Source: Verrucomicrobiota bacterium
Lineage (GTDB): Bacteria > Verrucomicrobiota > Verrucomicrobiia > Limisphaerales > UBA9464
Direction: 5' to 3'
DNA: 44,784 nucleotides
Assembly (NCBI GenBank): GCA_947454705.1
Contig: CANGKZ010000040.1
Span: 1 to 44,784 of the forward strand
Below are positions 21,667 to 40,012 of the stretch, piece by piece. Position 1 is the first letter of the stretch. Each line of letters opens with the position of its first letter. The notes beneath the pieces are model-generated. The model searched no databases. It had not been told where the DNA came from and saw only the letters and a list, made by a program, of their open reading frames with translations. Made by a program: the position numbers and the translations under genes.

Positions 21667-22257
21667 CTATTGCGGAAGCGCGACAAGCCAAGGAATTTCC
21701 GGCTTTGACAACGAATCGAGCGGTTCAAACAAAGGATCTGCAGGCAGACTACCCACCACCTCTTTGACCGTTTTTCCAGTCCCCGGCACCTCCCAGTCTG
21801 GAAGCAAATCCGCGAGCGGCTCCATCACGAACCTGCGCAAATGCGCCCGGGGATGCGGCAGGATCAGCTGCGCTAAATCCCGGCGCTCCGTCCCCCACGC
21901 GATGAGATCCAAATCGAGCGGCCGAGGCTCGTTCAGCACACGCTTCGGAACCCGTCCCGCTTCGCGCTCCAACGCCTGGGTGGATTTCAACAAAGTCTCA
22001 GGGGTCAGCCCGGACCGAGGCCGAAACGCCACCACCGCATTCACGAACAAGGGCGAACCCGGCGGACAATCCACCGGCGTGGATTTGAAAATCCGGGAAC
22101 GCCGCACCGGCCCCTGGGCAAACGCCTCCAGCGCCCGGGCCGCCTGATCAAAGACGCGAACCGAGTCCCCCAGATTGGATCCGAGGGCCACCACCACCCA
22201 GGGCTCCTGCCCCGGCGCTTCGACGCGACCGATGGGATTACTTGAGTCCAAGGACAT
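21667..22257 (-). CDS. folK: HPPK (folate pathway pyrophosphokinase)
   Basis: 6-hydroxymethyl-7,8-dihydropterin pyrophosphokinase, 196 aa. It has VVALGSNLGD at about residues 22-31, the substrate-binding FVNAVVAF, and the HPPK signature with RPLDLDLIAWG near residue 120. It activates dihydropterin for folate synthesis. The ATG at 22257 overlaps the last codons of dapB by 20 bp, so the two are probably translated in tandem. The C-terminal end is slightly longer than in minimal HPPKs (about 160 aa). Confidence 0.93.
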   Translation of the reverse strand: MSLDSSNPIGRVEAPGQEPWVVVALGSNLGDSVRVFDQAARALEAFAQGPVRRSRIFKSTPVDCPPGSPLFVNAVVAFRPRSGLTPETLLKSTQALEREAGRVPKRVLNEPRPLDLDLIAWGTERRDLAQLILPHPRAHLRRFVMEPLADLLPDWEVPGTGKTVKEVVGSLPADPLFEPLDSLSKPEIPWLVALPQ

Positions 22258-22972
22258 CCTGCATGTCGTACACGCCCGGAGGACGCCCAATCACCCACTG
22301 CGACGCACGAAGCGCCCCCTGGGAGAACGTGTCCCGGCTGCTGGCCTTGTGCGTGAGCTCCACCCGTTCGCCGGTCGCGGCGAAGATCACCGTGTGATCC
22401 CCCACCACGTCGCCGCCGCGAACCGCGTGAATTCCAATTTCCGAGGAGGTCCGCTCGCCCACGATGCCTTCACGGCCATGCCGCAACGCCTCCTTCAACT
22501 GCACCTGACGCACCTCGCCGAGGATCTCCAGCAACGTCGTCGCCGTTCCGCTCGGGGCATCCTTCTTGAGGCGGTGATGCATCTCGACCACTTCCAGATC
22601 GAACGAAGGCCCAAGAATCTCAGCCGCCTTGCGGGTCAGCCAGAAGAGCGTGTTCACGCCCGTCGAGTAGTTTGAGGCCCACACCATGGGCACCTTCTTG
22701 GAATGAGCGCGGATCACTTCCTTCTCCGCGTCGGAGTGCCCTGTGGTTCCGATCACCAGCGCCTTGCCCTGCTCGGCGCAGGCAGCAGCCACGCCGGGGG
22801 TGACGGAATGGAAGCTGAAGTCGATCACCACATCCGCCTGCGGAAGTACGGCGCGGAGATCGTCACCGGAATCAATCGCGGCAACAACCGTCAGCCCGGG
22901 AATGCGTTGTGCGCAGGTCAGCAGGGATTGTCCCATGCGACCCTTCGAACCATTGATGATTACGTTGGTCAT
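22238..22972 (-). CDS. dapB: 4-hydroxy-tetrahydrodipicolinate reductase
   Basis: DapB, 244 aa, lysine/diaminopimelate pathway. The NAD(P) motif NGSKGRMG is at the N-terminus, GTTGHSDAE in the linker, and the catalytic signature EMHHRLKKDAPSGTA is present. The start ATG at 22972 is chosen over an ATG at 23011, which adds 13 non-conserved residues. It is downstream of dapA by 95 bp, with a stable hairpin in that gap, and overlaps folK. Confidence 0.95.
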   Translation of the reverse strand: MTNVIINGSKGRMGQSLLTCAQRIPGLTVVAAIDSGDDLRAVLPQADVVIDFSFHSVTPGVAAACAEQGKALVIGTTGHSDAEKEVIRAHSKKVPMVWASNYSTGVNTLFWLTRKAAEILGPSFDLEVVEMHHRLKKDAPSGTATTLLEILGEVRQVQLKEALRHGREGIVGERTSSEIGIHAVRGGDVVGDHTVIFAATGERVELTHKASSRDTFSQGALRASQWVIGRPPGVYDMQDVLGLK

Positions 22973-23002
22973 CGGGCCGACAACCTGCCACCGGAACGAA
23001 CA

Positions 23003-23032
23003 AGGCGCCACGTCGAAAAACGACGGGCGCCT
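23003..23032 (-). other. Intercistronic hairpin between dapA and dapB
   Basis: Arms aggcgcc-a-cgtcg and cgacg-ggcgcct pair over 12 bp with one bulged base and a five-base A/T loop. There is no T-run on the exit side, so it is more likely an mRNA-processing or stability element than a terminator. Confidence 0.45.
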
Positions 23033-23067
23033 GATCGCTTCAAACGGGGCTGAATCCCGGGGCTGAT

Positions 23068-23946
23068 TTACTTCAAAACGCCGAGGTCACGGAGGGTCTT
23101 TTCCATGAGCGCCTTGGTGGCCGGCGTGCAGGAAACCAACGGGAGACGCACCTCTTCGGTCATCATGCCCATCAGCGAAAGCGCGGCCTTGCACGGAGTC
23201 GGGTTGGTCTCGACGAAGAGATTCTTGAACATCGGATACAACCGCTGATGCGCCTTCAGCGCGCCCTTCACATCGCCGGCTGCGTACTTGCGAACCATGC
23301 CGCTCACAAGGGCGGGCACCACGTTCGAAGCCACGCTGATCACGCCGCGTGCGCCGACCGACATGAACGGAAGCGTCAACGCGTCATCGCCGCTCAGCAC
23401 CACGAACTTCGGTCCGCAGGCCTGCATCAAACGGCTCACGCGGTCGGCATCGCCGCCCGCTTCCTTCATGCCGATGATGTTTGAACACTCCCGTGCGAGA
23501 CGCGCCGTGGTGTCCACACCGATCTCGATGCCGCAGCGGCCCGGGATGCTGTAGAGAATGATTGGCAGCTTGGTGGCCGTGGCAATGGCCTTGAAATGCT
23601 GGAACACGCCCTCCTGGGTGGGCTTGTTGTAATACGGGGCCACCTGGAGCGTGCCATCCGCGCCGAGCTTCTCAGCGGCGCAGGTGAGATCGATCGCCTC
23701 GGCCGTCGAGTTCGCCCCCGTGCCGGCGATCACCTTCACGCGACCCGCGGCAAACTTCACGGCGAGCTCGATCACCTTGAGATGCTCCTCGTGATCGAGC
23801 GTGGGCGATTCGCCCGTCGTGCCCACCGGCACGATGCCTTCCACGCCGCCCTTGATCTGCGACTTGATCAGCTTGGCGAGGGCGGCCTCGTCAATGCGGC
23901 CATTTTGAAACGGGGTGACAATCGCGGTGTAGGTGCCGGTAAACAT
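23068..23946 (-). CDS. dapA: 4-hydroxy-tetrahydrodipicolinate synthase
   Basis: DapA, 292 aa. It condenses pyruvate and aspartate semialdehyde. It shows the phosphate/carboxylate motif VGTTGESPTL at about 42-51, the proton-relay Tyr in LYSIPGRCG and the Schiff-base Lys in IIGMKEAGGD (about residue 161). The N-terminal TYTAIVTPF is canonical. It starts with ATG at 23946, 81 bp after the UxaC-like gene, and is the head of the dap pair; all genes from 25287 to 21007 run the same way. Confidence 0.96.
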   Translation of the reverse strand: MFTGTYTAIVTPFQNGRIDEAALAKLIKSQIKGGVEGIVPVGTTGESPTLDHEEHLKVIELAVKFAAGRVKVIAGTGANSTAEAIDLTCAAEKLGADGTLQVAPYYNKPTQEGVFQHFKAIATATKLPIILYSIPGRCGIEIGVDTTARLARECSNIIGMKEAGGDADRVSRLMQACGPKFVVLSGDDALTLPFMSVGARGVISVASNVVPALVSGMVRKYAAGDVKGALKAHQRLYPMFKNLFVETNPTPCKAALSLMGMMTEEVRLPLVSCTPATKALMEKTLRDLGVLK

Positions 23947-24027
23947 ACAGATTCCAGATAAACGGGGGTGACGATCCGACAATCCCGCCCGCTTTGGGAA
24001 GGGATTTCCGCACGTCACTCCACGAAC

Positions 24028-25287
24028 TCAGCCACGGCAAAAACGGTCAAACGCGCCTCCGAACAGCTCCGCAGCGTCGCGGCGGATTTCCTCGTCGGTC
24101 ACCTGCCATCCATTCGAGGCCAGCGCCACATAGCGGTCGCCCAGCGCCCCGGCCACCACCGATCGCGTGTGTTGCCACTTGTAAATCAACTGATCCAGCA
24201 CCCGCGCGTCGCTGTGCTGCGGCGTGAAACTCGTCCCCAACAGCTCCAGTCGCATGCGGGTGATCTCGTCCACCAATTGCGGCGTGTTGGTGAACCACCA
24301 GCACCCGAACGGATGCAAGTTGCGGAACTTCCGCGCCAGCACCACGAGCTCATGCAGATTCTCACGGCTCAGACAGGTGGCCAGGAACCGGTTGTCCGGA
24401 TTTGCCGCACACAGGTCGCGCAGCGCGTTCAAGTCGCTGCGACCGACGCCATCGCCGGCCATCCGCAGCGACGGATTCACCGCCCGGCGAACGCCCATCA
24501 TCAAGGCAAACGGCTGTCCAAACTCCCGACAATGCGGCAGCACCGCGTGGTCCAAAAGCCATCCCGTGTCGGTGTCGGCGGGGTATTGGAACTCCGGCGG
24601 CAGCGACACCATGCAGTAGCGGGAACCAATCCGACGGGTCCAGTCGGCCAGGAACCGGCGCACCTCGGAGGCCGTCCGCGGCGTCCGGTCCGACGACACG
24701 TCGTACCCATGCTGTTTCAAAAACGGTACGGCCGTTTTCCACGACAGGATCAGGGGATCGATGCGGAGTGCGGCGAAGAATCGCGGATCACGCGCCACCG
24801 CCTGGTCCCAGTACGGGCGTTCCTCGTCATCAAAGGGCGAATTGGTCATGCCCACGGCCGAGACATTGGCGGCGGCGAGCACGCGCTCGACATGCTGCTC
24901 CGCGGGGAGCGCCGCGAACCAGGCGCGCAGGGCCTTGAGATCACCATGACGCGGATCGAGCCCGAGCGCGTTCAGCACCGTGATCACGCCCGCGCAGGCC
25001 TCGGAAACCGGGGAATGTTTCACGAACAGCGCGTCCCAGATCAGGTCCGCCTGTTCCGATTTTGAGGCAGCCCAAAAACGGTCATACGACACGTCCCGGT
25101 CCAGCTGACGGAACGACTCGCTCACCAGGTAGTGGTACACCAGCAGATCATCGATCCCCCGCAGCAGCAGCGAACGGAAGCTCGGGTCGTAGAGGTGGGT
25201 ATGGAGATCGAGCACCGGAGTCTGGGACACGATGTCCCCCACCCGCTGACGCAACGCACTGCTCGATCCATGATCACAATGGGCCAT
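24028..25287 (-). CDS. UxaC-like glucuronate isomerase family protein
   Basis: A 419-aa amidohydrolase-superfamily protein of the uronate isomerase class. The metal-binding DLHTHLYDP is near residues 27-35, a conserved FDDEERPYW segment near 150, and FGCWWFTN-type motifs lie in the C-terminal half. Bacterial UxaC is usually around 470 aa, so this shorter form may be a relative with another substrate. There are no uronate-utilisation genes nearby. The ATG at 25287 directly precedes the conserved N-terminal region. Confidence 0.75.
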   Translation of the reverse strand: MAHCDHGSSSALRQRVGDIVSQTPVLDLHTHLYDPSFRSLLLRGIDDLLVYHYLVSESFRQLDRDVSYDRFWAASKSEQADLIWDALFVKHSPVSEACAGVITVLNALGLDPRHGDLKALRAWFAALPAEQHVERVLAAANVSAVGMTNSPFDDEERPYWDQAVARDPRFFAALRIDPLILSWKTAVPFLKQHGYDVSSDRTPRTASEVRRFLADWTRRIGSRYCMVSLPPEFQYPADTDTGWLLDHAVLPHCREFGQPFALMMGVRRAVNPSLRMAGDGVGRSDLNALRDLCAANPDNRFLATCLSRENLHELVVLARKFRNLHPFGCWWFTNTPQLVDEITRMRLELLGTSFTPQHSDARVLDQLIYKWQHTRSVVAGALGDRYVALASNGWQVTDEEIRRDAAELFGGAFDRFCRG

Positions 25288-25428
25288 GCGCCGACGCTAA
25301 GGTCGAACGGCCGGGAGGGTGAAGGCAGAAACCGCACCGAGACACGGCCGTTGGTTTCAAACGCGGCATGGACCCGCGTTTCCTCCGCGACAGGACTACG
25401 TCCTTGCCCCTAGAATCCGGTTCTTTCG

Positions 25429-26304
25429 ATGTCCATTCCGGTCTCCAACTATCAGCTTGTCCAACTCACCAACGGCTCGTGGAGCGTTCGTTCGCTCGCG
25501 GAAGGCGAGACGTTTCATCCCGTCGTTGGCCCGGTTGCGGAGGCGCAGGCGCTTTACGTGGAGCAGCTCCAGTTGCCCGCCCGGGTGGCGGCGGCCGCCG
25601 AAAACGGTTCGCAGGAGTTCGTGATCTGGGACGTCGGACTCGGCGCCGCGGCCAACACCTTGACGGTGCTTCGCGCGCTGCACGGCATTGATCGCCACCG
25701 GGTTCGCATTGTGAGTTTCGACCACACCGCCACGCCGCTTGAGTTCGCCCTCGGGAACGCGGAGCGGCTGGGGTACTTCGGAGGATACGAAGCCCCGGTG
25801 CGCTCGCTGCTGGATTCCGGACGCGTGGAGTTCGCCCACGGCAGCGGAGTCGTGACCTGGGAATTCGTGGGAGGCGACTTCCCGACGCTGCTCGAATCCG
25901 AGGCGTCGAAAGCCCTGCCCGCGCCGGATGCCATTCTCTTCGATGCCTACTCGCCGGCGCGCAATCCGGTCATGTGGACCCTGCCCGTCTTCCGTGCCCT
26001 GCGGAACCGGGTGGATCCGTCGCGCCCGTGCGCCCTGGCGACCTATTCGCGAGCCACGCTGCTGCGAGTCACACTGCTGCTTGCCGGTTGGTGGGTGGGT
26101 GCGGGATCGGCCACCGGGGAAAAGGAGGAAACCACGCTGGCCGCGAGCGATCGAAGCCTGGTGGGCCGGCCCCTGGACCAAACCTGGATCGGCCGCGCCC
26201 TGCGGTCGCGCAGCGCAGAACCGATGGTGGAACCGGTGTATCGGCAACTGCCGCTGTCGGACGAGACACGGGCCCGGTTGCTCGCGCATCCGCAGTTTGG
26301 GTGA
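25429..26304 (+). CDS. MnmD-like tRNA methyltransferase domain protein
   Basis: 291 aa, related to the methyltransferase half of MnmC (MnmD), which finishes the mnm5(s2)U modification at tRNA position 34. A SAM motif I, WDVGLGAAANTL, lies near residues 66-77. The diagnostic block LFDAYSPARNPVMWT is near 170-184 and is followed by LATYSRATLLR. There is no fused FAD-oxidase (MnmC2) half. The C-terminal 70 residues are less conserved. It is divergent from the UxaC-like gene and downstream DNA is the nested repeat cluster. Confidence 0.82.
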   Translation: MSIPVSNYQLVQLTNGSWSVRSLAEGETFHPVVGPVAEAQALYVEQLQLPARVAAAAENGSQEFVIWDVGLGAAANTLTVLRALHGIDRHRVRIVSFDHTATPLEFALGNAERLGYFGGYEAPVRSLLDSGRVEFAHGSGVVTWEFVGGDFPTLLESEASKALPAPDAILFDAYSPARNPVMWTLPVFRALRNRVDPSRPCALATYSRATLLRVTLLLAGWWVGAGSATGEKEETTLAASDRSLVGRPLDQTWIGRALRSRSAEPMVEPVYRQLPLSDETRARLLAHPQFG

Positions 26305-26320
26305 TGCTGTTGGTTGAAGG

Positions 26321-26586
26321 GTTGAGCCTAGAAACGGCAGTTGAAGGGTTGAAATGTTGAAGAGTTGAAGGGGAAATCCGACGCAACCGCGAAGGGTTGT
26401 TCCTTCGTTTGGAGTTCCGTCTTCAGACGGTTCGGGTGGGCGCGTGTGAAGTCCAATGCGGGTTGAGTTCCCCCTTCCGTCGAACTCATCGTCCAACAGC
26501 AGAGCCGCGTAAACGCGGTACTCCATGCGTGTGAGGAATGCCGCTCCCCTCTTCAACGCTTCAACTTTTCAACCCTTCAACCGCCG
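26321..26586. repeat. Family B element, copy 2, interrupted by family C
   Basis: The left arm (26321-26375) begins gttgagcctagaaacggcag and continues into a run of GTTGAAG units. The right arm (26546-26586) is the reverse complement of that run, ending in ccgccg. The interior (26411-26524) is a complete 114-bp family C element. This gap of about 370 bp between the methyltransferase gene and ilvB contains no gene. Confidence 0.8.
26411..26524. repeat. MITE-like element, family C, copy 2 (114 bp)
   Basis: The left end is ggagttccgtcttcagacgg (26411-26430). The right end (26505-26524) reads ccgcgtaaacgcggtactcc. It has the same length as the 4228-4341 copy, strong identity in the first 35 bp and at the right end, and a more diverged middle. 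It lies wholly inside the family B element. Confidence 0.78.
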
Positions 26587-26675: not shown

Positions 26676-28556
26676 TCAGTACTTCATGTCCGCCACGGTG
26701 CGGCCCGCCGGAATGAACGGAAGCACGTGCTCGGCGTACGGCGTCATGATGTTCAGCACGTACGGGGTCTTCGCATCGAGCATGCGCTGCAGCGCGGCGC
26801 GGAGATCCTTGCGGAACATGACCTGCTCGGCCGGGACGTTGAAGCTGTTGCAGACGCGCACATAGTCCGGATAGACCTGCGCACGATTCTCGGGATTGCC
26901 GAGGTAGGTGTGGCCGCGGTTGCCGGCGTAGAAGCTGTCTTCCCACTGCACCACCATGCCGAGGTGCTGGTTGTTCAGGATGATGGCCTTGGCGGCGATC
27001 TTCTCGACGTGCGCGGTGGCGAGTTCCTGGATGTTCATCAGGAAGGAGCCGTCGCCGTCGATGTCCACGACCTGCTTGTCAGGACGGGCCACCTTGGCAC
27101 CGAGCGCGGCCGGATAGCCGTAGCCCATCGAACCGAGACCACCCGAGGTGATGAAGGTGCGGGGATCCTTGTACTTATACCACTGGCCGGACCACATCTG
27201 GTGCTGTCCAACGCCGGTGGTGATGATGGCGTCGCCGCCGGTCATCTCGTACAGCATCTCGATCACCATCTGGGGCAGGATGACCTGGTCTTCCTGGCCG
27301 ACCATGTGGTCCTTCATGTGATCGCTGTTGGCGATCTCAGGAGTCACTTCGTAGTGGAACGAGGCCTTCTTCTTCCACTCGGCGATCTGGGCGTGCCACG
27401 CGGAGTACTTCTTCTTGATGCCGCCGTGGCGGTTGACCAGGGCGTTCAGGCGGGTGAGAGCATCGCGAATGTCGCCCTGCACCGCGAGGTGGGCGCGCTT
27501 GTTTTTGTTGTGCTCCGAGGCGTCGATGTCGATGTGAACGATCGTCGCACCCTTGGCGAATTCGCTGAAGGCGCCGGTGACGCGGTCATCGAAGCGAACG
27601 CCGAACGCGAGCAGGAGGTCCGCCCCGTCGTTGAGCTTCACCATCGGCTCGGAGGGATCGTTGCGCTGCTTGTACTCACCGCTGACGGCCCAGTTGGCGA
27701 CGGCCGAGCCGTGCATGCCGAGCCAGCGCATCGAGAGGGGGTTGTTTTCCGGGAAGCCACCGATGCCCATGAGCGTGGTGGTGACCGGGATCTGCGCCGC
27801 CTCGGCGAACTTCTTCAGTTCCGCAGCCGCACCGGAGGTGATGATGCCACCACCGCAGTAGAGCACGGGACGCTCAGCCTTTTCGATGAGGCCGATGATC
27901 TCGTTCAGTTCGAGATCGCCCGCGACGACATCGGGATTGTAGCCGCGCAGGCCCTTCTTGATTTCGTCGAGCGTGGGCCAGACCGGCTGGGCCTTGGCCT
28001 GCTGGAGGTTCTTCGGGAAGTCGATCACGACAGGACCCGGACGGCCGGATTCCGCGATGTAGAACGCCTCCGCGACCACGCGGGGGATGTCCTTGATGTC
28101 GGTGATGAGATAGCTGTGCTTCACGATCGGCATCGTGACGCCGACCATGTCGGTCTCCTGGAAGGCGCCGCGGCCGATCATGGCCTGACTGACCTGGCCG
28201 GAGATGGCGACCAGCGGGCACGAGTCCATGTAGGCATCGGCGATCGCGGTGACCAGGTTGGTGGCGCCGGGGCCGCTGGTGCCCATGCACACGCCGGCCT
28301 TGCCAGTGGCGCGGGCATAACCTTCCGCGGCGAAGCTGCCGCCCTGCTCGTGGCGGGGGAGGATCGTGCGGATCTTGGACCGGGTGAGGGACTGATGGAT
28401 TTCCATCGAGGCACCACCGGGATAGGCGAAGATCACTTCGACACCGGCGCGCTCGAGGGCTTCGACAAAGATGTCACGGCCGTACATCAGCGGTCCCACC
28501 TCTTTGCCGGAATGGGCGGAGGTGGACGGATTGGATTGGGAGGTCGCGGAGCTCAT
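26676..28556 (-). CDS. ilvB: Acetolactate synthase, large subunit
   Basis: 626-aa ThDP-dependent synthase, the first common enzyme of branched-chain amino-acid synthesis. The N-terminal domain has the catalytic Glu in RHEQGGSFAAEGYAR and GTSGPGATNLVTAIADA. The C-terminal ThDP motif is GDGSFLMNIQ...NNQHLGMV. The stretch YPGGASMEIHQ is typical of AHAS rather than of other ThDP enzymes. The ATG at 28556 is chosen; a further 20 codons upstream would run back through the leader terminator's downstream flank. No ilvN regulatory subunit gene is adjacent. The 5' leader contains a probable attenuator. Confidence 0.95.
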   Translation of the reverse strand: MSSATSQSNPSTSAHSGKEVGPLMYGRDIFVEALERAGVEVIFAYPGGASMEIHQSLTRSKIRTILPRHEQGGSFAAEGYARATGKAGVCMGTSGPGATNLVTAIADAYMDSCPLVAISGQVSQAMIGRGAFQETDMVGVTMPIVKHSYLITDIKDIPRVVAEAFYIAESGRPGPVVIDFPKNLQQAKAQPVWPTLDEIKKGLRGYNPDVVAGDLELNEIIGLIEKAERPVLYCGGGIITSGAAAELKKFAEAAQIPVTTTLMGIGGFPENNPLSMRWLGMHGSAVANWAVSGEYKQRNDPSEPMVKLNDGADLLLAFGVRFDDRVTGAFSEFAKGATIVHIDIDASEHNKNKRAHLAVQGDIRDALTRLNALVNRHGGIKKKYSAWHAQIAEWKKKASFHYEVTPEIANSDHMKDHMVGQEDQVILPQMVIEMLYEMTGGDAIITTGVGQHQMWSGQWYKYKDPRTFITSGGLGSMGYGYPAALGAKVARPDKQVVDIDGDGSFLMNIQELATAHVEKIAAKAIILNNQHLGMVVQWEDSFYAGNRGHTYLGNPENRAQVYPDYVRVCNSFNVPAEQVMFRKDLRAALQRMLDAKTPYVLNIMTPYAEHVLPFIPAGRTVADMKY

Positions 28557-28605: not shown

Positions 28606-28637
28606 AAAAAACCCACGGCCGTTGCCAGCCGTGGGTT
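28606..28637 (-). terminator. Leader terminator of ilvB (attenuator 3:4 stem)
   Basis: On the minus strand, the perfect 10-bp stem aacccacggc / gccgtgggtt with an 8-nt loop is followed by a T-run (six T in total). It lies about 50 bp before the ilvB start and 16 bp after the leader stop codon. Its 5' arm can alternatively pair with the distal codons of the leader peptide frame. Confidence 0.88.
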
Positions 28638-28652
28638 CTTGTGAAAGCGCTT

Positions 28653-28724
28653 TTATGCACGACAAGTCCCAGCGGCGGCGTCGCCCGCTACAAGGACTAC
28701 TACAAGGTTCGTGCACGGTTGCAT
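28653..28724 (-). CDS. ilvB leader peptide (23 aa)
   Basis: A short frame ATG...TAA whose centre reads Leu-Val-Val-Val-Leu-Val (six of six branched-chain codons in a row), followed by Ala-Gly-Asp-Ala-Ala-Ala and a Cys/Arg end. This is the layout of the known ilv leader peptides of enterobacteria. It has no Shine-Dalgarno; the start codon is close to the expected transcription start, so it may be read as a leaderless message. It ends before the terminator at 28606-28637. Its purpose is probably ribosome position sensing, not the peptide itself. Confidence 0.75.
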   Translation of the reverse strand: MQPCTNLVVVLVAGDAAAGTCRA

Positions 28725-28731
28725 TGGAGGA

Positions 28732-28762
28732 AATCTAGCGAATCACCCCGGGGTTCGGTCAA
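28732..28762 (-). promoter_or_regulatory. Putative ilvB leader promoter
   Basis: Minus strand TTGACC (28757-28762) and TAGATT (28732-28737) are separated by 19 bp. They lie between the protease stop codon (28771) and the leader ATG (28724). The expected start would be at 28724-28725, at or next to the A of that ATG. The 19-bp spacer is long, so the call is tentative. Confidence 0.4.
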
Positions 28763-28770
28763 GCCTGCAT

Positions 28771-29688
28771 TCAGCGTCGATGGGGAGATCCTGAATCCCC
28801 CACCCACTGCCCCATCGGGTGCATGTTGCCGCATTCCGGGCATCCAGTGGTGGCCTGGGCCATGCCGCAGGCGGGACAGGCCCCGAACGATTCAAAGGTA
28901 TCGAACGATCCGCCGCACGCGCCGCATCGCCAGAACGATCCCACCGGCGGGGCTTTCTCGCAGCTCGGGCAATGGAACCCGGCACGACGCGGCCATTGCT
29001 CAATGCGGGTGAGAAGCTTGGCCTCCTGCCATCCGCGCCAGCAGTTCATGCCCACAAAGCCGGCCATGACCATGTTGAGGATCGACCCGGACTTCAGCGC
29101 ATACGCCGCCAGCAACGCGACGCCCACGAAGCCAACCACGCTGGCAATCTTCAGGCTTTTCGCCCGACCAAAAACAAACCAGAGCAACGACCGGAAGATC
29201 TGCCCGCCGTCGAGCGGGTAAACCGGAAGCAGGTTGAAGATCAGCAACCCGGCGTTCAGGTACACCATGTCCATGAGGAAATTCTGGGCATTGGGGTTCG
29301 TGCTCTCCCATCCGGCGGACTCGGTGACCATCGCCGCGACGAAGAAGAGCGGCAGCAGGATCAGGTTGACCAACGGACCGGCTGCGATGCTCCAAAGCTG
29401 CGCTCCGGGCCGGGGCGGCGCTTGAACAAACGCCACGCCGCCCAACGGCCACAGGACAATTTCCTCCGCGCGTCCACCTACGGATCGGGTCGCGAACGCA
29501 TGACCAAACTCGTGCAGCAGCACCGTGGCGAACAACGCGAGGTAGTCCAGCACCGGCCACAACAACGAGGTGTACGAGCCCATGCGCGCCTGGATCCCGT
29601 AATAGGCCACGATGAACCACGACCAGTGCAGGAACACCTGGATCCCGGCGACCTGGAAGAGACGAAACGAGCCCTGACGGGTTGGCAT
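28771..29688 (-). CDS. Site-2-protease (M50) family membrane protease with zinc ribbons
   Basis: 305 aa. An intramembrane metalloprotease of the M50/SpoIVFB type. It shows the zinc-binding HEFGHA (about residues 59-64), the second metal motif NLLPVYPLDGGQIFRSLL, and four to six hydrophobic segments. After the membrane part a cytoplasmic tail of about 75 residues carries four CxxC pairs (CPSC, CGAC, CPAC, CPEC), enough for two zinc ribbons. No PDZ or CBS domain is present. The ATG at 29688 begins the conserved MPTRQGSFRLFQVAGI; the frame extends 19 codons upstream. It is divergent from the transglutaminase gene. Its substrate is unknown. Confidence 0.88.
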   Translation of the reverse strand: MPTRQGSFRLFQVAGIQVFLHWSWFIVAYYGIQARMGSYTSLLWPVLDYLALFATVLLHEFGHAFATRSVGGRAEEIVLWPLGGVAFVQAPPRPGAQLWSIAAGPLVNLILLPLFFVAAMVTESAGWESTNPNAQNFLMDMVYLNAGLLIFNLLPVYPLDGGQIFRSLLWFVFGRAKSLKIASVVGFVGVALLAAYALKSGSILNMVMAGFVGMNCWRGWQEAKLLTRIEQWPRRAGFHCPSCEKAPPVGSFWRCGACGGSFDTFESFGACPACGMAQATTGCPECGNMHPMGQWVGDSGSPHRR

Positions 29689-36364: not shown

Positions 36365-39300
36365 TTACTTCGACTTGTTCGGATAGGCCGGCGGCGCGGG
36401 AATCTTGACCGGCTTGGCCGCGAGACCCTTGCGAATTTCCTCGATGGCGCGGTTCAGCTGATCGTCCACGCCTGAGAACTCACGCGACGGGTCGTTGTCC
36501 ACTTCGATGTCCGGATCCACGCCGTGGCCTTCCATGATCCATTCCTTGGCTTCGAGATCGAACCGGGAGAACTCCGGCTTGCTCAACGTCCCTCCGTCGA
36601 GCAGCGGCAGCGATCCACGGATGCCCACCACACCGCCCCAGGAACGCTGACCAATGATCGGCCCGAGCTTCGCCTTGCGGAAGCGGTAGCCCACGATGTC
36701 GCCATCGCTCGCCGAATGCTGGTCGATGAGGAGCACCTTCGGCCCAAGCACCTGACCCGACGGATCCACATGCACCGAGCCATTGCGGGCCACGGTCCAC
36801 ATGGCGGGCTCGCGACGCAGACGCTCGATGATCATCGGCGACACATTGCCGCCGCCGTTTCCGCGGCAATCCACGATCAGCGCCTCCTTGTTCAGCTGCG
36901 GATAATAGAACTTCGCAAACTCGTTGAGTCCGGGCACGCCCATGTCGGGAACGTGGACGTAGCCCACCTTTCCGTCGGTGGCCTTGCTCACGGCTTCGAT
37001 GTTCCCCAGCACCCACTTGAGGTAGTAGAGCGATTGTTCATCCGCGGTGGGGATCACGGTTTCATCGTGGGCTCCCTCGGCCTTGGGTTCGGAATTCACA
37101 CGCAGCACCACCTGCCGATCGGCCTTGCCCACCAGGGCGGCGTAGAGGTCCTTCCATTGCGTGGCCGGAGTTCCGTCCACCGCGACGATGTAATCCCCCG
37201 GCTTCACGTTCACCCCGATTTCAGTCAGCGGCGAACGGAGCTTCTTGTCCCAGTTTTGGCCCGGGAGGATTTCATCCACACGGAAGAATCCGCTCGAATG
37301 ACGCGAGATCACCGCCCCGAGCAGCCCCTGCGCGATGCGTTCCGGCTTGGGGAAATCGCCTCCGCCGACATAGGCATGACCGATGTTCAACTCACCGATC
37401 ATCTCGCCGATGACGTAGGTGAGATCCGCCCGGTGCTGCACGTGAGCGAGCAGTGGCTCGTAGCGACGCTTCATCGCCGGCCAGTCCACGGCGTGCAGGT
37501 TCGGGTCGAAGAGGAAGTCCCGCATCTGACGCCAGCACTCGTTGTAGATCTGGTTCCACTCTGCGTGACGGTCGATCCGCACCTTGAGGTCCGCGAGGCT
37601 CAACGCCTTGTCGGCCAGGTCCACCTTACCGGACGGAAGATCGATGATCGAGAACCCATCGCCCGACTTCACCAGCATCTTCTTGCGATCCGCAGAAATC
37701 CGAAATCCGCCGAACTCCCCGACTTCCGTCTCCTTCTGCTTCTCCAGATCGAAGACCATGAGCTTGTCCTTCTTCTGGTAATAGAGCTTCGACTCCACGC
37801 TGGTCAGATTCGCATAGCTGGACGCTCCCGGCGGCAGCACCGCGATGCGCTGCTGCAGTCCATCGACATCGACCTTCACAGCCACACCCGCAGCGCCGTT
37901 GGTCTTTGACGCGGCATCGGGCTTCTTCTCCGCCACGGCATTAGTGGCCGCATCGCCCTTGGCCAGCGCCACCACCACCTTGCGAAACTCGGGATCCGCG
38001 AGGAGCGAGCCGATGGTCATCGGCGTGGACGACTTCGAGGCCGTGGCTTTCGCAGCCTCCTGCACGTCGGGCGGCGTGTCCTTGGTCTCCTTGGGTTTGT
38101 CGGCGGGTTTCACTTCATCGCTCTTCGGGGCAAAGGGCGACTTGGTGTCCTTGGCCAGCGTCAGCAGGTAAACCCGCGACATCTCGGTGTACACATGATT
38201 CCACTCGGTCTGGCCGTAGGTGGGATTGAAGGTCCGGTCGGACACGAAGAACAGGTACTTGCCGTCGGAGCTGAACTCCGGATTCGACACTCCAAACCAA
38301 CCGTCGGTGGCCGCGACCTTCTTCTTCGATTCGAGGCTGTAGAGCTGGATGGTCGAGAACTGCGTTTCCTCGGGACGCGTGTAGGCGATCCACTTGCTGT
38401 CGGGCGACCAGGTGAAATCGTGCATTTCCCAGGTGGCGGTTTCCACCACGGTCACGGCCTTGGTCTCCACCTCGACAAACTGCAGCAGGTTCTTTTTGTC
38501 CGACCACAGCACGCGCTTCGAATCAGGCGACCACGCGAGTTCGTATTTGTAGGTGTCGGATCCGGTCGTGAGTTGAACCGGCGTCCCGCTGCCGTCCTGC
38601 GGCCGCACATAGATTTCATCCTCCCCCGAGGCATCGCTCACGTAGGCGATGCTCCGGCCATCGGGCGACCACACGGCGTTGCGCTCGTGCACGCCGGGAG
38701 ATTGCGTGAGATTGCGCGTGGGACCGTGCTTGGCCGGGACGGTGAACACATCGCCGCGCGCACCAAACACCGCACGGGAGCCGTCGGAGGCGATATCAAA
38801 TTCGGTCACCGACTTGCTGACATCGCGCCATCCGTCGCGTCCGCTGGCGAGGTCCTCACGGATCTCGATGGGCACCTTGGTCACGGCTTCGGTCGCGAGG
38901 TCCATGCGATGAATGTACCCGCCGTTTTCGAATACGATGGCGTTGTCGCCCAGCGACGGGAATTTCACGGCGAACTCCGTGAACTTGGTGATCTGCCGCG
39001 TCTGGCGCGTCTTCAGATCGAAGACGAACAGATTCGCCTGATGGTTCTCATCGCGCTCCGACACGAAATAAATGCGATCCCCTGCCCACATCGGATAAAT
39101 GTCCTGAGCGTTGTCCTGGGTGATCTTCTCGGTCTTCTTGGTTTCGAAATCGTAGATCCAGATCTCATCCGCCTGACCGCCCCGGTAGCGCTTCCAGGTC
39201 CGGAACTCACGGAACACGCGGTTGTAGGCGAGCTTCTTTTTGTCGGGCGAGAAAGAACACCATCCCCCGCGCGGCAGCGGCAATTCCTCGGGCACGCCTC

Positions 39301-39799
39301 CGTCCACGCGTGCGAGCGTGAGACGCCCCTTGAACGGGTTCCAGTCCTTGCGACGCGACCGGTAGATCACCGTCGAATCGTCCTGCCAGGTCATCACGAT
39401 GTTGTTCGGCCCCATGCGGTCCGACACATCATCGCGTTCCAGCGTGGCCGTGTAGGTCAGCCGCTTGGGCACGCCGCCTTCCGACGGCATGAGGTACACC
39501 TCGGTGTTGCCATCGTACTGGCCGGTGAAGGCGATCTGTTTTCCATCGGGCGAGAACCGCGGGAACATTTCGAATCCCACATGGCTGGTAAGCCGCCGCG
39601 CCACGCCGCCGGTCGAGGACACCGTGAACAGATCCCCGGCGAAGGTGAACACGAGTTGATTGCCATGAACCGCCGGGAAGCGGAGCAACCTGGCCTCCTC
39701 CGCAACCGCAACCGCGACTGAGGCGGACGTGGAGAGCATCAGCACTCCAGGAAGGGTGAGCAACAAACGGCGAAGGCTTGGAAAGAGGGGTCGGGACAT
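36365..39799 (-). CDS. Tricorn-type S41 peptidase
   Basis: About 1144 aa from the ATG at 39799; the longer frame enters non-coding DNA. A signal sequence (LLLTLPGVLMLSTSASVAVAVA) is followed by two beta-propellers of WD40/TolB-like repeats (FPAVHGNQLVF, FSPDGKQIAF, WAGDRIYFVSERD, WSPDGRSIAYVSD). Then come a Lys/Ala/Pro-rich low-complexity linker (about residues 540-620), a C1 helical domain, a PDZ domain (VGVNVKPGDYIVAVDGTPA in part) and an S41 core with the nucleophile Ser in HSASDGDIVG. The tricorn tetrad His is in NIGHAYVGGG, but the residue before it is Gly where archaeal tricorn has Ser. The function is probably processing of peptides in the periplasm. Confidence 0.92.
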   Translation of the reverse strand: MSRPLFPSLRRLLLTLPGVLMLSTSASVAVAVAEEARLLRFPAVHGNQLVFTFAGDLFTVSSTGGVARRLTSHVGFEMFPRFSPDGKQIAFTGQYDGNTEVYLMPSEGGVPKRLTYTATLERDDVSDRMGPNNIVMTWQDDSTVIYRSRRKDWNPFKGRLTLARVDGGVPEELPLPRGGWCSFSPDKKKLAYNRVFREFRTWKRYRGGQADEIWIYDFETKKTEKITQDNAQDIYPMWAGDRIYFVSERDENHQANLFVFDLKTRQTRQITKFTEFAVKFPSLGDNAIVFENGGYIHRMDLATEAVTKVPIEIREDLASGRDGWRDVSKSVTEFDIASDGSRAVFGARGDVFTVPAKHGPTRNLTQSPGVHERNAVWSPDGRSIAYVSDASGEDEIYVRPQDGSGTPVQLTTGSDTYKYELAWSPDSKRVLWSDKKNLLQFVEVETKAVTVVETATWEMHDFTWSPDSKWIAYTRPEETQFSTIQLYSLESKKKVAATDGWFGVSNPEFSSDGKYLFFVSDRTFNPTYGQTEWNHVYTEMSRVYLLTLAKDTKSPFAPKSDEVKPADKPKETKDTPPDVQEAAKATASKSSTPMTIGSLLADPEFRKVVVALAKGDAATNAVAEKKPDAASKTNGAAGVAVKVDVDGLQQRIAVLPPGASSYANLTSVESKLYYQKKDKLMVFDLEKQKETEVGEFGGFRISADRKKMLVKSGDGFSIIDLPSGKVDLADKALSLADLKVRIDRHAEWNQIYNECWRQMRDFLFDPNLHAVDWPAMKRRYEPLLAHVQHRADLTYVIGEMIGELNIGHAYVGGGDFPKPERIAQGLLGAVISRHSSGFFRVDEILPGQNWDKKLRSPLTEIGVNVKPGDYIVAVDGTPATQWKDLYAALVGKADRQVVLRVNSEPKAEGAHDETVIPTADEQSLYYLKWVLGNIEAVSKATDGKVGYVHVPDMGVPGLNEFAKFYYPQLNKEALIVDCRGNGGGNVSPMIIERLRREPAMWTVARNGSVHVDPSGQVLGPKVLLIDQHSASDGDIVGYRFRKAKLGPIIGQRSWGGVVGIRGSLPLLDGGTLSKPEFSRFDLEAKEWIMEGHGVDPDIEVDNDPSREFSGVDDQLNRAIEEIRKGLAAKPVKIPAPPAYPNKSK

Positions 39800-39889
39800 G
39801 AGGTCGTGGGGGTTCACTCGAACACGTTCAGCGCAGCGAATGCTTGGGAGGCCGCGACGCTTTGTCCACTCTGGAACCGAGGAGCGGAC

Positions 39890-39922
39890 GTTGAAGGGTC
39901 GAAAAGTTGAAGCGTTGAAGGG
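39890..39922. repeat. Solo GTTGAAG repeat arm
   Basis: Run of GTTGAAG-type units (gttgaagggtcgaaaagttg, then one more unit) matching the interior arms of family B. No partner arm is present in the tricorn upstream gap. Confidence 0.55.
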
Positions 39923-39965
39923 GGTAAAGAGGCGATGCGTCGCGCCGGACTGAAAACACCACGCC

Positions 39966-40012
39966 AGGCATGCTCCCATTTTTCATTTTTAATTTAGAAT
40001 TTTTCATTCGCC
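39966..40012 (+). promoter_or_regulatory. AT-rich island, possible promoter
   Basis: In an otherwise GC-rich segment, about 40 bp are dominated by A/T (tttttcatttttaattt...). It lies 30-70 bp upstream of the lipoprotein gene at 40038, a likely place for its promoter. No single -35/-10 pair is convincing. Confidence 0.3.

Follow-up and report, generated by a model that had tools for sequence, protein, structure and literature searches.

A predicted ribosome-mediated transcription attenuator upstream of ilvB in Verrucomicrobiota of the order Limisphaerales

How might ilvB, the gene for the large subunit of acetolactate synthase, be controlled in a Verrucomicrobiota bacterium in which it follows a short frame of valine and leucine codons and a terminator-like hairpin? 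The question is raised by positions 28606-28724 of contig CANGKZ010000040.1 (assembly GCA_947454705.1; the whole stretch analysed, 44,784 nucleotides (nt), is called the window). A preliminary description had proposed a ribosome-mediated attenuator of the enterobacterial type. The present comparison with related genomes indicates that the element is very probably a ribosome-mediated transcription attenuator of ilvB, and for evidence taken from sequence only the case is well supported. The frame, its codons, three conserved helices and the spacing of a promoter-like box all emerge from that comparison. The whole element, like ilvB, lies on the minus strand.

The leader frame (28653..28724), which encodes MQPCTNLVVVLVAGDAAAGTCRA and ends with a TAA stop at 28655-28653, has 23 codons. 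Codons 7-12 (28689..28706) are CTT GTA GTA GTC CTT GTA, i.e. Leu Val Val Val Leu Val, so that the six successive Leu/Val codons described before the terminator and ilvB were found as reported. The intrinsic terminator (28606..28635) has a ten-pair stem at 28635-28612, CCCACGGCTG-GCAA-CGGCCGTGGG, with a GCAA loop and six T residues (TTTTTT) to 28606, and AA/TT flanks lengthen the stem. It had been called perfect; the ten pairs are there, but one of them is G-T, and the word is therefore not strictly correct. ilvB (26676..28556) starts at 28556 and scored 657.5 bits with TIGR00118 (cut-off 538.35).

Three alternative helices can be drawn in this leader. Segment 1 (TGCACGA, 28709..28715) is the 5' arm of a predicted pause, or anti-antiterminator, helix, and its partner TCGTGCA (28662-28656) lies at the 3' side of segment 2, as the preliminary description had it. 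Segment 2 (GCCGCTGGGACTTGT, 28662..28676) forms the 5' arm of the antiterminator, while segment 3 (ACAAGAACCCACGGC, 28628..28642) provides both its 3' arm and the 5' arm of the terminator; the energy of this duplex in the window is -18.6 kcal/mol. The antiterminator proposed earlier does occur, GCCGCTGGG pairing with CCCACGGC around one bulged C, but it was drawn too short: it goes on with CTTGT (28666-28662) pairing to ACAAG (28642-28638). CTTGT is made up of the Cys codon and, before it, the last two bases of a Thr codon; ACAAG sits directly before the terminator. In many relatives the extension reads CTTGTCG with CGACAAG. The 137-nt leader folded with a z-score of -4.17, which none of 200 shuffles equalled.

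Related loci were obtained by a profile search of genome contigs for ilvB (80 named loci) and by a family search (30 loci, the window's own included). Labels of the relatives include Verrucomicrobia subdivision 3, Limisphaera, Limisphaerales and Pedosphaera, and those labelled Akkermansia, Klebsiella or Proteobacteria were taken as mislabelled metagenome-assembled genomes. The terminator was detected in 84 of 93 distinct ilvB upstream regions, the window included, a count that is descriptive since the pattern was drawn from the ilvB-leader family itself, with three variants added by hand. Nine ilvB loci of 61-65% identity (L101, L103-L105, L107-L111) gave no pattern match; the contig of L101 ends 154 nt upstream, too close to be judged, which leaves eight distinct ilvB loci that lack the element. 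A full leader frame was found in 81 of the 84 terminator loci, the other three (L003, L056, L073) being cut by contig ends. A terminator kept where the leader frame is lost, a case named beforehand as damaging to the proposal, was found at none of the 81 ilvB loci whose contig spans the leader. Loci L081 and L082 (5' part missing) and exact duplicates were left out; alignment A1 holds 80 rows, one of the 81 being absent, and rows L085 and L092 contain N.

All 81 full frames were read as starting with ATG, contain 22-29 codons and have a stop whose end lies 16-29 nt upstream of the terminator. A frame of 20-30 codons that begins with ATG, ends 14-30 nt before the terminator and holds at least five Val, Leu or Ile (V/L/I) codons in eight was present in 70 of 81 loci, compared with 9 of 4050 dinucleotide shuffles. 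With at least four such codons the numbers were 76 of 81 and 31 of 4050, the remaining five loci having fewer. In total the leaders contain 449 Val, 155 Leu and 45 Ile codons. The rare valine codon GTA accounts for 216 of the 449 Val codons, compared with 68 of 3627 in ilvB of the same loci, and its fraction was higher in the leader at 79 of 81 loci.

The helices were tested without an alignment by pairing each segment of the 81 sequences with its own partner and with partners from 2000 permutations. Own pairing was ahead of all 2000 permutations for the antiterminator 2:3 (mean -20.83, best permutation -19.79), the terminator 3:4 (-22.57 and -22.11) and the pause helix 1:2 (-23.38 and -20.89), and it was better than the mean of clearly different partners in 58, 66 and 67 of 81 loci, respectively. 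In pair counts over 80 sequences, 998 of 1040 terminator cells and 957 of 1200 antiterminator cells were paired, values that none of 1000 shuffles reached. Two-sided changes in the antiterminator were seen in 17 loci at c107:t-8 and in 10 at c102:t-3, C-G to T-A among them at both pairs, and in 4 at c103:t-4, with T-A to C-G; weak antiterminator pairs are c97:t+3 (39/80), c107:t-8 (42/80) and c100:t+0 (43/80). A telling natural case is given by L085, L091 and L092, with terminator arms CCCACGACC/GGTCGTGGG and the leader segment GGTCGGG in place of the GCCG..GGG seen elsewhere. The alignment of relatives recommended in the preliminary description thus showed the leader frame, the branched-chain codons and the three helices to be kept, with covariation. 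Antiterminator pairing, whose loss had also been named as a warning sign, is generally kept but weak in some loci (lowest -12.4 kcal/mol, in L004). GNRA-like loops were seen in 54 of the 81 terminators.

Upstream of the leader lies a -35-like box (TTGACC, 28757..28762), 38 nt before the leader ATG, and a weak match, TAGATT (28732..28737), may be the -10 box, with a 19-nt spacer and its end 7 nt before the ATG. Of the 81 loci, 79 have TTGAC at a distance of 30-55 nt upstream of the leader ATG, and in 74 the distance is 35-42 nt. The best -10-like hexamers vary; in 73 of 79 loci they end 6-12 nt upstream of the ATG. Leader start codons were assigned according to V/L/I content, and a tie went to ATG; in L051, L062, L063, L084 and L099 (TTGAC offsets 45-50) an earlier ATG may be the true start. 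Usual promoter geometry would put the transcript start within a few nucleotides of the AUG. None of the 81 loci has a Shine-Dalgarno-like GGAG, GAGG or AGGA at -16 to -4 of the leader ATG, a count made without a control on other genes of the genome. The TTGAC spacing and the missing Shine-Dalgarno-like sites together suggest that the transcript probably starts at or near the leader AUG. The enterobacterial model put forward at first applies to control codons, pause helix, antiterminator and terminator; the lack of a Shine-Dalgarno-like site and the promoter-like box abutting the ATG suggest instead a leaderless start like that of Corynebacterium. A generic promoter and terminator scan of the window picked up neither element.

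A covariance model built from 80 sequences, in which the terminator pairs alone were modelled, was used to follow the family. At E<=1e-6 it matched 260 of the order's 293 genomes (147 of 154 when only those of good quality are counted) and 106 of 114 genera, and ilvB lay downstream in all eight loci fetched (the remaining 252 were not examined for ilvB). Nine of the 33 order genomes without a match were checked, and seven of these had no ilvB at the cut-off; of the other two, G444 has ilvB without a leader, and in G465 the contig ends 103 nt upstream of ilvB. In a draw of 387 genomes from the phylum, strong matches were confined to G000, the window's own genome, and G344, the sole order genomes among those listed, and matches in the other listed genomes were weaker (8.4e-10 or worse); the listing leaves aside 280 genomes that gave no match. 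Outside the order, 85 of 385 genomes matched at E<=0.01, many on the terminator end of the model alone.

Thirty loci were fetched from the phylum draw, and six contained ilvB: L112 (the window), L113 (G344), L118, L120, L124 and L125. The last four carry a distant ilvB (37-40% identity). In L118, L120 and L124 the V/L/I-rich frames are unlike those of the family and the terminators differ in sequence, and these three were not counted as family members; L125 has a terminator, and no frame was found. Judged by sequence, these loci are perhaps independent attenuators. L115 (match at about 398-547), from another family of the class, combines a leader frame containing V/L/I codons with a closely similar CCCACGGC terminator; the longest downstream frame appeared methyltransferase-like by eye, and the locus yielded no ilvB.

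The model also matched upstream regions of leuA in another genus of the order (g10), where the assignment as LeuA is based on NF002991 for L158 (755.9 bits, cut-off 455). In the window's own genome (G000:C27, L178), leuA is preceded by a GTG-started, Leu-rich leader, VICPALLRLSMIALLSGAVVGVD, and then by a CCCACCGCCG..CGGCGGTGGG terminator. Leader and terminator were found together in 20 of 35 leuA loci examined, namely 5 of 5 found by the model and 15 of 30 from the family search (30 fetched of 46 matches listed). Two of the 15 family-search loci without a called leader keep the terminator: L181, which is cut by the contig end, and L199, in which no frame was found. The 20 leuA leaders contain 117 Leu, 47 Val (GTG starts counted) and 22 Ile codons, and GTA is absent (0/47). 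The control codons thus match the enzyme, Val in front of ilvB and Leu in front of leuA. A search of 7 genomes for Trp-coded leaders at trpE-like genes (14 loci) and for His-coded leaders at hisG (7 loci) gave a few short frames with two Trp or two His codons, respectively, but no fitting terminator, and none was counted.

Could the same hairpins be explained without translation of the leader? A terminator controlled by a ligand or an RNA-binding protein, i.e. a riboswitch or protein-dependent switch, could make use of the helices alone, and the modest in-frame synonymous signal (given below) would fit it. This explanation is improbable, because the conserved columns of A1 are mainly Val codons, the stop region and the pairing segments, and because leaders built alike carry different codons at the two genes, Val at ilvB and Leu at leuA. 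Searches with Rfam covariance models likewise gave no match of any family in the window at the gathering score, T-box and riboswitch families included. At E<=10 there were four sub-threshold matches, none to an ilvB family (4227 models, among which the presence of ilvB motifs was unchecked); RF00514 His_leader reached 21.5 bits against a cut-off of 49 and covered the terminator part alone.

That the leader is a functional micropeptide and the hairpin merely lowers basal expression is still harder to credit. By a loose pattern, 76 of the 81 peptides do have Cys or Cys-Arg at their end, but it is antiterminator segment 2, with its covarying pairing, that encodes the residues kept, and the rest of the peptide varies in length (22-29) and sequence. 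The longer antiterminator can explain the conserved end as a constraint on the RNA. Just as slight is the chance that the hairpin terminates an upstream gene and the leader frame is a chance open reading frame: a same-strand frame with a Pfam M50 peptidase match does end at 28771, 46 nt before the leader ATG, but this gene was found close to no more than 3 of the 81 leader loci, counting the window (76 of the 81 hold 900 nt or more of upstream sequence), whereas leader and hairpin stay with ilvB, so that the element travels with ilvB, and moreover the leader frame is far above shuffles and the promoter-like box lies between the two frames.

For the attenuator, we infer the start site, translation, stalling and read-through from this arrangement. 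Transcription would begin at the leader AUG or at most a few bases from it, and the 5' end would be loaded with a ribosome although it has no Shine-Dalgarno site. As long as Val- and Leu-tRNA are charged, this ribosome would reach the stop codon and cover segment 2, 3:4 would pair and transcription would end. With uncharged Val-tRNA, above all the reader of the rare GUA, or uncharged Leu-tRNA, the ribosome would stall on codons 7-12 and cover segment 1, so that 2:3 could pair and the polymerase continue into ilvB. If the leader is not translated, termination would be favoured by helix 1:2, provided that this helix forms first. Most likely, then, ilvB is switched on when Val or Leu is scarce. 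Partial folds of the window sequence, with the ribosome footprint set at 14 nt past the first base of the A-site codon, gave the antiterminator when the ribosome stood on codons 7-12 and segment 4 was not yet made, and only the terminator when it stood at the stop, as in the classic scheme of attenuation.

Several observations weigh against attenuation or limit the evidence for it. The single-contig genome G444 (L171), a member of the order, has ilvB without leader or terminator, an apparent loss within the order; a TTGACC box is still there, 132 nt upstream of the ilvB match. The missing Shine-Dalgarno sites are weak evidence alone, since Shine-Dalgarno use is low in some Verrucomicrobiota according to PMC10783764. 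The in-frame synonymous excess is modest (85/295 changed codons, compared with 43/286 and 69/284 in the other frames), RNA pairing may be a partial cause of the GTA bias in the leaders, and the partner permutations ignore kinship. Full-length folds gave the terminator as the minimum-energy structure in every stall state tried, so that timing would decide once segment 4 exists and only kinetic capture is workable. Finally, the ribosome-free fold cut before segment 4 had the antiterminator, not helix 1:2, as its minimum, which makes strong termination in the absence of translation less likely for this genome, unless 1:2 is the first helix to form.

The mechanism itself is known from Proteobacteria and Actinobacteria. 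In the enterobacterial trp, his, ilv and leu attenuators, control codons act with helices 1:2, 2:3 and 3:4, and the leader peptides are Shine-Dalgarno-led; the logic is common, whereas the verrucomicrobial leaders have no Shine-Dalgarno-like site. Some of the closest parallels described are actinobacterial. The Corynebacterium glutamicum ilvBNC attenuator, or ilvB-II motif, is described as having a leader rich in branched-chain amino acids (BCAA), MTIIRLVVVTARRLP, before ilvB and three hairpins (PMC11857589, PMC10272879), with transcription starting one nucleotide from the leader start codon (PMC11857589). It differs in phylum, peptide, sequences and terminator, and the verrucomicrobial element has its own conserved helices. 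By its description, Mycobacterium tuberculosis ilvB1NC also resembles the present element, with a short BCAA frame (LVVI) and a terminator/antiterminator switch before ilvB1, and a figure legend names GUA as the regulatory codon (PMC13236596); unlike the present element it is actinobacterial and was tested by experiment. The ilvB-OMG and Leptospira ilvB motifs are likewise RNA motifs before ilvB, reinterpreted in PMC10272879 as attenuators with upstream open reading frames rich in BCAA or Thr codons. The main text of that paper, on which this comparison rests with the supplementary ilvB-OMG alignments aside, does not contain the word Verrucomicrobia.

Candidate leaders before actinobacterial ilvB and leuA are reported in PMC1262725. 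The LEU element of actinobacterial leuA shares the Leu-codon leader but is described there as a pseudoknot involving the leuA Shine-Dalgarno box, whereas the verrucomicrobial leuA element has a terminator. A 2010 survey (PMC2965389) started from leader peptides already described in Proteobacteria and Actinobacteria and added those of Firmicutes, its main text making no mention of Verrucomicrobia. The statement that such attenuation is not known to be established in the Planctomycetes-Verrucomicrobia-Chlamydiae (PVC) group agrees with our search, in that no report of amino-acid leader-peptide attenuation in Verrucomicrobiota was found in the literature covered, which took in few subscription papers. 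The family and the phylum are thus likely to be new as far as searched, likely rather than proven in view of this coverage and of a possible overlap with the ilvB-OMG alignment.

A family that spans the order, with control codons matched to the enzyme at each of two genes, would widen the range of the mechanism to Verrucomicrobiota, and the apparently leaderless verrucomicrobial attenuators would form a natural comparison with the actinobacterial ones. We tentatively put forward a wider scheme, which is possible but somewhat less likely to be right than wrong: Verrucomicrobiota subdivision 3 may have a leaderless BCAA attenuation regulon independent of that of Actinobacteria, with paralogous or convergent attenuators at ilvB (Val, rare GUA) and leuA (Leu), in which the AUG would be the 5' end, the first ribosome would load on the nascent end, and helix 1:2, lying near that end, would report both starvation and a failure of initiation. 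PMC1183508 treats the codon bias of attenuators, for which rarity is not the whole rule; the strong GUA bias would make such theories of codon choice testable across the 106 of 114 genera with a model match.

Other features of the window were noted in passing. dapA and dapB lie downstream of ilvB on the same strand, within 22238-26556 (minus). Two long frames adjoining ilvB (25396-26556 and 24028-25287) matched nothing in NCBIfam or Pfam and are possibly not genes. At 36365-39979, also on the minus strand, a frame of 1204 amino acids encodes a tricorn-type protease (PD40, Tricorn_C1, PDZ_Tricorn and Peptidase_S41).
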